From a virus: a DNA stretch of 49,753 nt. Both the position numbers and the translations under genes were made by a program. The notes below the pieces were generated by a model. That model saw only the letters and a program-made list of their open reading frames with translations, was not told where the DNA came from and did not search any database. The stretch is from IMG/VR virus record IMGVR_UViG_3300049736_000721, positions 1 through 49,753 of that record, one strand, 5' to 3'. Of this stretch, positions 39,091 to 41,400 are shown one piece after another; position 1 is the first letter of the stretch, and each line of letters opens with the position of its first letter.

Positions 39091-39384
39091 GTGATACCTC
39101 AATTTGATGGAAACAACCTTTTTGCCGCTAGTGGCGATTTCATAGGTTGTATAAAAGATAGAAGACTAATGCGCATCATGGATGGTGACGAATTTCCAGA
39201 ATCCTTTCCATTGTGCGAGTTTGCTATAAATGAGTATGGTAAACTATTTGAAGTACTAATAATAAATGACCAAAGCACAGGGATGCTATTAAAGATAGAT
39301 AGATGCAAAATAAAGCTTGTCCCTTCCGTGGATGGTTACTACAATATAAAATATGATGATATGGAGCCAATAAATGATTTGTGA
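39091..39384 (+). CDS. Unknown 97-residue protein
   Basis: GTG start supported by the TTGACA box at 21 nt. It has compact mixed alpha/beta composition with FIGCIKDRRLMRIMDGDEFP and LLKIDRCKIKLVP. I recognise no family. It is the first of three genes leading to the methyltransferase and overlaps the next by 11 bp. It may be an accessory or early gene; nothing in it suggests a virion protein. Confidence 0.6.
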   Translation: MIPQFDGNNLFAASGDFIGCIKDRRLMRIMDGDEFPESFPLCEFAINEYGKLFEVLIINDQSTGMLLKIDRCKIKLVPSVDGYYNIKYDDMEPINDL

Positions 39385-39688
39385 TTTACTAAATAATAGT
39401 GCGCCCACAGTGTTGGGCCTTGAAAGAACTGAGTACAAGTTGCTCATTCCGATAATAATAGCTTTTAAGGGTGTTGAGGGGGCTGATAGAGGTTTGGCAT
39501 ATAAGTGTCATACATGGCTATATGGGTGCATCATGAAGATTAGCCAAATGAGAGGGTGGATGGTTGATGATATTTATAGGGGCAATGAATCCGTGAAGGT
39601 TTCTGCTGAATGCACAAATGATGGGATGGCATTTACCATCTTTTTAGAAGAGTTTCAATTTTCAAAACTAACTGTGGAGGTTGCTTAA
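39374..39688 (+). CDS. Unknown 104-residue protein
   Basis: A 104-residue protein, ATG 39374. It contains IPIIIAFKGVEGADRGLAY and WLYGCIMKISQMRGWMVDDI, a helical centre, and a beta end. I recognise no family. It overlaps the preceding gene by 11 bp, and its TAA sits within the start region of the methyltransferase, so the three are probably co-translated. Confidence 0.6.
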   Translation: MICDLLNNSAPTVLGLERTEYKLLIPIIIAFKGVEGADRGLAYKCHTWLYGCIMKISQMRGWMVDDIYRGNESVKVSAECTNDGMAFTIFLEEFQFSKLTVEVA

Positions 39689-41186
39689 TGTGGATACTAC
39701 CGACAAAGAAATTACAGCGATTAGCTTATTTAGCGGATACGGAGGTCTCGACCTTGGAGTGCGAAAAATTATACCAAACCTGCGAGTCGTCGCTTATGTG
39801 GAGATCGAAGCCTATGCGGATGCACTCTTGGCGTCGAAAATTTCAAAACATAAAATGGATGAAGCGCCTATTTTTACTGATGTTACCCAATTCCCTAGCG
39901 AAGAATTTCGTGACAAAGTACACCTCGTCATTGCCGGATATCCGTGCCAAGACTTTAGTTTTGCCGGAAACAGAGCGGGACTGGAGGGAAATCGTGGAAA
40001 AATGTGGGGATACACCAGGTCAATTATTAATGGGGTCAATGCTAGAGCCTTCTTCGGAGAAAATGTCGACGGGCATCTCTCGCTTGGATTCGACACAGTC
40101 GTCAGCGATCTGGCAGAAGATGGTTATATGGTTAAGGGAGGACTATACTCTGCGTTCGAAGTTGGTGCGCCTCACCTTAGAAAACGAATTTTCTCGCTCT
40201 CATTCAAATCAGACCCAAGAGAAGAACCCTGGGCGTCAAGAAATAGAGGAAATCAAGGATGGGTCGACATCAATGAAGCCAAGTTCCAAGCTCTCACAAC
40301 AGGAAGAGTTGAGTTGGGCAACCCCATCGACAATGGACATACTACCACCAAGGAGTCCAGAGAAACTGAAGGAAGCGAAAAAGAAGGGTGGTTGCAAGAA
40401 TCTGAGGGAGGATGTAGCGAGGGAGGAGATACCACCAAACCTTTGGCCAACGACGAGAGCGAGCGACGGGGGAGCAGGGACAATGAAGGCGGAAGTGACC
40501 CCAGGGGGGTTCAGGATGAAGAGGGAGAGATCAGGCGAAGTATTCGGAGCGAGGCTGGGGGAAGCAGTGGAAGCGATGGAGAATTGGCCAACACCGATAG
40601 TGACGGATTCCACGGAGATGGAGACGGTGAGCAGTTGGGAGAAGAGAAAGGAAAAGAAGGCTCAGCAGGGCATCAACCTACACAAGCCATTGAGAATAGC
40701 CGTACAACTGAAGAAGAACACTGCCTCATGCTCGCAAAACTCTACGATGAAGGATTCCCAGGAACAGAGCAATGTGATGGAGAATTTAGAATCAAGTTTG
40801 AAACAGAACACCCACATTTGCCAATCAGATGGCCATCAAGACCAGGGCGAGAGCAGCAAGGATGGGAAGAACCTAGAACCATCCTCTTGGGCAACCCCAA
40901 GGACTCTGGATGCGAGCAACCTGATGATGAACACAAAGAAAAGGGGCAAGGAGAAGGAGAACACACTTTGCGGTCAAGCAGCAAAACAAGTAAAAGCAAG
41001 AAAACTGAACCCATCATGGGTAGAGAGCCTAATGCTGTTACCCGCGGGTTACACGAAAATAGAATCGAACGACTCCGAATGTTAGGAAATGGTGTTTTAT
41101 GGCTCACGGCATCTAAAGCTTTTTCAGAATTATTAGATCAGCATGAAGAACATTTTAAAGAATTGGATAAGCTTGGAAAACTATGA
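39681..41186 (+). CDS. DNA cytosine-5 methyltransferase
   Basis: A 501-residue protein from TTG 39681; GTG 39690 is an equally good start (498 residues). C5-methylase motifs are in order: LFSGYGGLDLG (I), GYPCQDFSFAG (IV, catalytic Cys), FFGENVDG (VI), APHLRKRIFSLS (VIII), and RIERLRMLGNGV near the end (IX). Between VIII and IX lie about 270 residues rich in Gly, Ser, Glu and Arg, with family-like blocks (ELANTDSDGFHGDGDGEQ; RWPSRPGREQQGWEEPRT). This middle region, probably target recognition, is overlapped by a second open frame (39688-41085). It probably protects phage DNA from restriction; no matching nuclease gene is seen. Confidence 0.85.
   Translation: MLNVDTTDKEITAISLFSGYGGLDLGVRKIIPNLRVVAYVEIEAYADALLASKISKHKMDEAPIFTDVTQFPSEEFRDKVHLVIAGYPCQDFSFAGNRAGLEGNRGKMWGYTRSIINGVNARAFFGENVDGHLSLGFDTVVSDLAEDGYMVKGGLYSAFEVGAPHLRKRIFSLSFKSDPREEPWASRNRGNQGWVDINEAKFQALTTGRVELGNPIDNGHTTTKESRETEGSEKEGWLQESEGGCSEGGDTTKPLANDESERRGSRDNEGGSDPRGVQDEEGEIRRSIRSEAGGSSGSDGELANTDSDGFHGDGDGEQLGEEKGKEGSAGHQPTQAIENSRTTEEEHCLMLAKLYDEGFPGTEQCDGEFRIKFETEHPHLPIRWPSRPGREQQGWEEPRTILLGNPKDSGCEQPDDEHKEKGQGEGEHTLRSSSKTSKSKKTEPIMGREPNAVTRGLHENRIERLRMLGNGVLWLTASKAFSELLDQHEEHFKELDKLGKL
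39688..41085 (+). CDS. Second protein overlapping the methyltransferase (+1 frame)
   Basis: A 465-residue frame, open from ATG 39688 to TAG 41085, entirely within the methyltransferase gene. Its first about 200 residues look like a random shadow. From about residue 208 it contains WATPSTMDILPPRSPEKLKE, NLWPTTRASDGGAG, ENWPTPIVTDST, SSWATPRTLDASN and LNPSWVESLMLLPAGYT. I recall this exact type of sequence (W-P-T-P-T-A-R-D repeats ending L-N-P-x-W-V-E-x-L-M-G-x-P) from annotated phage and bacterial proteins, often near methylases. Either two proteins share this DNA, or the frame is an evolutionary shadow of a family whose two frames are both annotated. It could be expressed from ATG 39688 or by +1 frameshifting. 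Confidence 0.45.
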   Translation: MWILPTKKLQRLAYLADTEVSTLECEKLYQTCESSLMWRSKPMRMHSWRRKFQNIKWMKRLFLLMLPNSLAKNFVTKYTSSLPDIRAKTLVLPETERDWREIVEKCGDTPGQLLMGSMLEPSSEKMSTGISRLDSTQSSAIWQKMVIWLREDYTLRSKLVRLTLENEFSRSHSNQTQEKNPGRQEIEEIKDGSTSMKPSSKLSQQEELSWATPSTMDILPPRSPEKLKEAKKKGGCKNLREDVAREEIPPNLWPTTRASDGGAGTMKAEVTPGGFRMKRERSGEVFGARLGEAVEAMENWPTPIVTDSTEMETVSSWEKRKEKKAQQGINLHKPLRIAVQLKKNTASCSQNSTMKDSQEQSNVMENLESSLKQNTHICQSDGHQDQGESSKDGKNLEPSSWATPRTLDASNLMMNTKKRGKEKENTLCGQAAKQVKARKLNPSWVESLMLLPAGYTKIESNDSEC

Positions 41187-41400
41187 AAGATTGGAAAAAT
41201 TTGCTAAAAAATTTAGCACCAGCGAAATAAATTACTGTTTGGTAGTTGACGATGAAGACCGTATTAACATTAATAAGCGAGCACTAGAAAACTATCTTTC
41301 TCACCAAGTAGAAGATATTTCATTTACCATTATTGATATTTCTTCCTTGCCAAAAGATACAAGTACTTGTTTAGTTATGAGAAAGCATGAACCCAAATGA
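41143..41400 (+). CDS. Unknown 85-residue protein
   Basis: An 85-residue protein starting at ATG 41143 inside the end of the methyltransferase gene. Helical N-terminus (NWISLENYERLEKFAKKF), then beta-type (YCLVVDDEDRININKRAL, FTIIDISSLP). No family recognised. It overlaps the next gene by 14 bp. Confidence 0.55.
   Translation: MKNILKNWISLENYERLEKFAKKFSTSEINYCLVVDDEDRININKRALENYLSHQVEDISFTIIDISSLPKDTSTCLVMRKHEPK

Follow-up and report, generated by a model that had tools for sequence, protein, structure and literature searches.

Two long open reading frames (ORFs) overlap on the plus strand of the window, by which we mean the whole stretch of 49,753 nucleotides of IMG/VR virus record IMGVR_UViG_3300049736_000721 that was analysed. 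According to the ORF list of the window, the methyltransferase (MTase) ORF extends from GTG 39690 to 41186 (498 aa), or from an alternative TTG start at 39681 (501 aa), whereas the second ORF lies in the +1 frame, starts with ATG at 39688 and encodes 465 aa up to position 41085. Both ORFs had been named in a preliminary description of this DNA, and their coordinates hold. A Shine-Dalgarno-like GGAGGT (39676..39681), found in the sequence and by a Shine-Dalgarno scan of relatives, is located 6 nt before ATG 39688 and 8 nt before GTG 39690 and serves both starts; the TTG codon overlaps it. Within the sequence TAATG (39686..39690), the stop codon of an upstream 104-aa gene (39374-39688) overlaps the +1 ATG. 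The nearly coincident starts pointed out previously are thus real, and the same ATGTGG dual start, with ATG and GTG 2 nt apart, recurs in relatives. In the Pseudomonas/E. coli type, the ATG and GTG starts are 4 nt apart. Downstream, the next gene (window positions 41143-41400; 85 aa, no Pfam match) begins within the 3′ end of the MTase gene, resulting in a short overlap.

The MTase frame (39690..41186) encodes a C5-cytosine methyltransferase. It matched PF00145 in Pfam (E=1e-30) with residues 12-191, which cover motifs I-VIII, and the HMM match places this catalytic region at 39708..40289, with PCQ from ~39942 and ENV from ~40059. Motifs IX-X (RLRMLGNGVLWLTASKAF...) occupy 41070..41186. When aligned with relatives, the C-terminal sequence RIERLRMLGNGV falls on invariant columns and represents motif IX, in agreement with the earlier claim of a full motif set that ends in motif IX. 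No recognition domain was found between motifs VIII and IX of the window MTase chain. The corresponding region (40290..41030) is a "shadow" of low complexity, as had been suspected, with a hydrophobic fraction of 0.15 versus 0.34 in the catalytic part; the MTase frame remains open here, and the constraint acts mainly via the +1 frame.

The +1 gene (39688..41085) consists of an N-terminal part, a series of cassettes and a C-terminal motif, LNPxWVExLMxLPAGYT. Cassette 1 (WATPSTMDILPPRSPEKLKEAKKKGGCKNLREDV..., 40315..40443), which is backed by cassette clusters, is followed by cassette 2 (WPTTRASDGGAG...GARLGEAVEAMEN, 40444..40584) and by cassette 3 with its spacer (WPTPIVTDSTEMETVSSWEKRK...PLRIAV..., 40585..40887). 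Cassette 4 (WATPRTLDASNLMMNTKKRGKEKENTLCGQAAKQVKARK, 40888..41004) belongs to cassette cluster 15 and is followed by the C-terminal motif LNPSWVESLMLLPAGYT (41005..41055). The +1 protein of the window gave no match in Pfam or NCBIfam, and a PDB sequence search returned nothing meaningful. It did match PHROG 1008 over the cassette region (E=7e-7), so that the separate annotated family suggested for this frame does exist, and the protein search of both frames that had been advised yielded PF00145 for one and PHROG 1008 for the other. PHROG 1008 also matched all 10 of the 10 diverse +1 relatives scanned, as well as the cassette-to-motif-IX half of the single-chain proteins from loci L328 and L017. 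The description of this family ("DNA methyltransferase") is silent on an overlap with an MTase gene, and its members are a mixture of +1 and in-frame versions. Ten very diverse +1 proteins, when aligned, lacked a searchable conserved stretch. The AlphaFold model of the window +1 protein was poor (pLDDT 54.7), and a fold search was ruled out. As the cassettes were modelled with low confidence both here and in a single-chain protein, a recognition-domain fold has not been demonstrated.

Relatives were collected in two sets selected by the +1 motif, comprising 80 viral contigs and 80 bacterial/archaeal contigs (one genome per GTDB species), and in a set of 80 viral contigs found by MTase motifs alone. 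The first relatives, L002, L004 and phage C75C1, carry the same ORF pair in the same phase, with +1 proteins 69%, 52% and 32% identical, respectively, to that of the window. Upon permutation of the synonymous MTase codons of the window, 9.5 stops were expected in the +1 frame, but only 2 were observed, both at or beyond the +1 ORF's own end; none of 200 permutations was as low. The third frame behaved as expected (44 versus 42.7 stops). Within-gene synonymous permutation of the MTase-selected set gave 179 observed versus 673 expected +1 stops, terminal stops included, and 1624 versus 1591 in the third frame. From the catalytic start to the LNP motif of 21 dereplicated loci of this set, not a single +1 stop was observed where 126 were expected (third frame, 410 observed and 393 expected). 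For the MTase frame, stops from motif VIII to the LNP motif were counted in the two sets that had been selected by the +1 motif: the GTDB genomes had 0 stops versus 101 expected, and the viral loci had 4 versus 118, all four in one locus. A further count for the catalytic region, 0 versus 128.5 +1 stops, presupposes the +1 ORF and does not serve as main evidence. Stops accumulating in one frame among relatives had been named as the result that would refute dual coding; instead, both frames stay open.

Divergence at four-fold sites of the MTase gene was compared at matched protein identity. It amounted to 0.30 for loci with a +1 gene that spans the entire catalytic region. In phages with an internal +1 start, it was 0.71 upstream and 0.38 downstream of that start. 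The reduction in synonymous divergence is confined to the overlap, as dual coding demands. Codon positions of the window and L002 diverge by 0.14/0.11/0.25 in the catalytic part, compared with 0.65 at third positions of a neighbouring gene. In the middle region (40290..41030), the values are 0.42/0.20/0.20 in the MTase phase, which corresponds to third-position variation in the +1 frame and therefore to +1 coding. The codon-position analysis in relatives proposed earlier thus came out in favour of the second frame. Among 879 cassette pairs, the same DNA specifies +1 proteins that are 70% identical and MTase readings that are 37% identical, and the +1 codon positions diverge by 0.26/0.20/0.55. 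Of 36 loci, 33 have the C-terminal +1 motif, whereas it appeared in a mere 30 of 10,800 synonymous permutations. By these computations, both frames code for protein and are subject to selection. We regard dual coding of the MTase and the +1 gene as nearly certain, although translation of both frames is not backed by expression data.

An untranslated +1 frame that is merely a conserved shadow of the MTase codons would account for some of its features. The +1 patterns SLPDxRAKT and WPTP mirror the MTase motifs PCQ..S and LADT, and the family-HMM signal in the catalytic region is mostly shadow. Such a shadow cannot, however, produce the results for synonymous permutation, four-fold sites, codon positions and cassettes that cross frames, and we attach hardly any weight to it. 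Both a chance ORF and a shadow were ruled out by the permutation and divergence tests. Homology of the +1 N-terminal part across distant types was discarded as evidence, because the permuted-codon control scored nearly as high (mean of 45.7 versus 50.1 for the real window sequence). An N-terminal domain common to all +1 types is not established, since conserved MTase motifs, through their shadow in the +1 frame, explain most of this similarity.

The overlap, which the preliminary description had noted for a single gene, is widespread and recurs in more than 100 other phages and prophages of many bacterial phyla. The hosts include Firmicutes, Bacteroidetes, Pseudomonas, Burkholderia, actinobacteria, Chloroflexi, spirochaetes and a Poseidoniales archaeon. 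In the sets selected by the +1 motif, the strict LNPxWVExLMG motif resides in the +1 frame of an MTase ORF at 144 of 145 callable loci, and the sole frame-0 case, L155, appears frameshifted. These sets contained no locus with an intact +1 protein but without an MTase; loci lacking an MTase match were contig ends or a fragment. The whole +1 ORF is open in 75 of the 80 viral loci selected by MTase motifs, and the remaining 5 are mostly contig ends or motif variants. This distribution also bears on the possibility that assembly or sequencing frameshifts created the second frame. The window does stem from a virus record of a metagenome collection, and a few loci (L155, L035) show a frame change. 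The open pair is, however, found again in the phage records C75C1, Alfacinha3 and Yong-M2-251, in E. coli PT62 and in more than 100 independent contigs, so that an artefact of this kind can be practically dismissed.

Several loci deserve separate mention. The E. coli PT62 prophage (L342:2500-3256) contains a complete dual-coding pair with GTG 2500 and ATG 2504, of which the RefSeq annotation lists only the MTase frame. Its cassette RGDCPSERxRRTPDL is also present in Lihuaxuella (L109, +1 frame) and in a Gordonia-type phage (L266, frame 0). In Mycobacterium phage Jinglebell (L021:2341-3257) and relatives such as Llama and Ochi17, both frames shift at ~2870, and reverse-strand hypothetical genes are annotated around this position in the Jinglebell record. 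The catalytic domain harbours an insertion at L264:2633-3275, a LAGLIDADG-like homing-endonuclease sequence whose reading frame is +1; the MTase frame is open through the insert, and the +1 protein restarts after GGAGG...TGAATG.

In its middle, the +1 protein carries an array that comprises 1-6 swappable modules of the form "WxTPxxxD...L..xV", opening with [W/L]xTP, and is followed by the C-terminal block LNPxWVExLMGxPxGWT. Clustering sorted the cassettes into recurrent types. Among pairs of loci with 85-95% catalytic identity, only 14 of 312 have the cassette order in common, and cassettes that are 70-87% identical occur on catalytic domains with only 34-44% identity. The arrays of actinophages usually start in the +1 frame and then continue in the MTase frame. 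Of their frame-0 cassettes, 169 of 209 match +1 cassettes (E<=1e-3), with up to 73% identity over 41-43 aa. Examples are L273 (frame 0) versus L332 (frame +1), with 72% over 43 aa, and L017 (frame 0, actinophage) versus L025 (frame +1, unrelated phage), with 71% over 34 aa. The cassettes are modular, are exchanged between phages and occur in either frame. Because their amino acid sequence is kept in whichever frame carries them, the shadow explanation is excluded. The proposal of true dual coding in the preliminary description is strongly supported: both frames are open in independent relatives, synonymous constraint on the MTase is seen only where the +1 gene overlaps, and the cassettes are conserved across frames.

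The recognition domain of C5 MTases sits between motifs VIII and IX. Exactly here, the single-chain relatives L328, L296 and L303 have all their cassettes and the EWMMG block, all in frame 0. The structural model of L328 matches M.HaeIII and M.HhaI (E~1e-14); its helix-EWMMG-motif IX part is confident, but its cassettes are not. Another arrangement is found in L326, L341, L340, L322 and L035, where the MTase ORF breaks off behind motif VIII and the cassettes, EWMMG and motif IX all lie in the +1 ORF. With the catalytic chain stopping at that point, an enzyme of the split type would need both chains. At L035:2467-3301, the +1 protein forms an in-frame fusion with MTase motifs IX-X, a natural split like that of M.AquI. 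The +1 ORF of many actinophages stops short of the EWMMG block, which is then encoded in frame 0; the second chain is therefore not uniform.

Based on these comparisons, we propose that the +1 gene product is a target-recognition subunit. We consider it likely that the locus encodes a two-chain C5-cytosine MTase on one stretch of DNA. Frame 0 would give the catalytic chain, with motifs I-VIII, a low-complexity linker and motifs IX-X. From the same ribosome-binding site, the +1 frame would give the second chain, made up of a basic N-terminal part, a swappable array of cassettes of ~30-45 aa each and the LNPxWVExLMGxPxGWT block. This chain is predicted to dock on the catalytic chain and to supply in trans what other C5 MTases hold between motifs VIII and IX, namely recognition modules, so that the cassettes would set which sequences become methylated. 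Binding of the chains to each other, reading of DNA by the cassettes, one specificity per cassette and the use of both starts are inferred, without expression, proteomic or methylation data; the methylation activity itself and the need for both chains belong to the same inferred picture. Provided that both starts are used, we likewise infer that one mRNA yields the MTase and, via dual or internal starts, the second chain. Internal +1 ATGs are preceded by a Shine-Dalgarno sequence in 71% of cases, versus 36% in permutations.

The preliminary description had also considered a +1 frameshift that would equip the methylase with a different recognition part. In such a scheme, ribosomes would follow frame 0 through motifs I-VIII, move to the +1 frame for the cassettes and return before motif IX, yielding one chimeric enzyme. 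The window would then acquire the single-chain order of L328 and L296, and the actinophage arrays, first in +1 and then in frame 0, are also compatible with it. Programmed frameshifting would nevertheless require two opposite shifts per protein. It does not explain why the +1 frame is open over motifs I-VIII (0 stops versus 126 expected from the catalytic start to the LNP motif) and constrained over the catalytic region (0.30 versus 0.71), why internal +1 starts carry Shine-Dalgarno sequences or why the MTase middle is open (0 stops versus 101). The upstream +1 region ought to be dispensable as an ORF, but it is both open and constrained. We consider frameshifting improbable. The idea of a different recognition part thus looks right in the form of a separately started subunit, and its origin as a frameshift product is disfavoured but not excluded.

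Alternatively, the +1 protein might have nothing to do with recognition, for instance as an anti-restriction or regulatory factor overprinted on the MTase by chance. Overprinted viral genes frequently have such unrelated functions (review PMC8227390), and the +1 protein of the window has no known domain. Against this stand other phages, whose MTase chain itself holds the cassettes where recognition domains sit, and the split forms, in which motif IX belongs to the +1 chain. We judge an unrelated function to be unlikely as well; both frameshifting and an unrelated overprinted function remain possible.

Among known systems, the two-polypeptide enzymes M.AquI and M.EcoHK31I come closest to the proposed two-chain enzyme. 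Lee, Kam and Shaw are said to have reported in 1995 that the small (beta) polypeptide of M.EcoHK31I is encoded inside the large (alpha) one in another frame. Two polypeptides form one C5 MTase in M.EcoHK31I (YGGCCR), the large chain comprising motifs I-VIII and X together with the recognition domain and the small chain motif IX only (PMC3404938). The likeness to the window thus lies in two polypeptides and, if the reported nesting is correct, in a second chain encoded within the first. Unlike the small chain of M.EcoHK31I, the second chain here has a cassette array and, in the window, lacks motif IX. In M.AquI (CYCGRG), motifs I-VIII are on one chain, and the distal recognition region with motifs IX-X is on the other (PMC3404938). 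A split of this type also occurs in L340, L341, L326 and L035, but much of the second chain here is encoded, in the +1 frame, by DNA that also encodes the first. The window keeps motif IX in frame 0, and L035, L322, L326, L340 and L341 have it on the +1 chain; the recognition role of the cassettes is inferred. In the multispecific C5 MTases known from the Bacillus phages phi3T, SPbeta and rho11, motifs VIII and IX are separated by several recognition modules of ~40 aa that can be interchanged. Their modules lie in one frame and one chain, while those described here are mostly in the +1 frame. The window has exchangeable modules but, with these in the +1 frame, does not qualify as a multispecific single-chain enzyme; only the single-chain relatives do.

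A specificity subunit beside a modification subunit is also known from type I HsdS, where the genes are adjacent and translationally coupled; hsdM and hsdS overlap by 1 nt and encode N6-adenine enzymes (PMC3510504). The separation of specificity from modification is alike, whereas the window encodes a C5-cytosine enzyme with whole-gene overlap. Rz/Rz1, embedded phage lysis genes, share the full overlap on the same strand but have neither modular cassettes nor frame exchange. We found no earlier description of this overlap arrangement in the openly licensed literature, to which the search was limited. As far as found, there are precedents for two-chain MTases and for module arrays, but none for a dual-coded specificity subunit with frame-changing cassettes.

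At L056:2127-2156, a (CA)15 tract is located where the MTase start (motif I) runs into the frame of the +1 protein, and in this assembly the remainder of the MTase is in another frame than motif I. Changes in repeat number would switch the fusion, which makes a phase-variable switch between two products possible. The broader picture, which we hold with no more than even confidence, is that phage MTases of this kind form a widespread class in which one stretch of DNA encodes both the catalytic and the specificity subunit and that cassettes cross phages and frames, so that methylation could be rewritten by recombination or small indels and, as in L056, might sometimes be phase-variable.

Long dual coding on one strand, in cellular as in dsDNA phage genomes, is usually written off as an annotation error. 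The present locus is a long dual-coding case that recurs across many phyla and offers constraint, modularity and natural single-frame controls. Annotation pipelines pick just one of the two frames, so that half of what is encoded goes missing. Should the cassettes indeed serve recognition, an overlooked protein would hold the specificity for a very common group of phage MTases, and the cassette catalogue would be a direct route to decoding which cassette corresponds to which DNA site.
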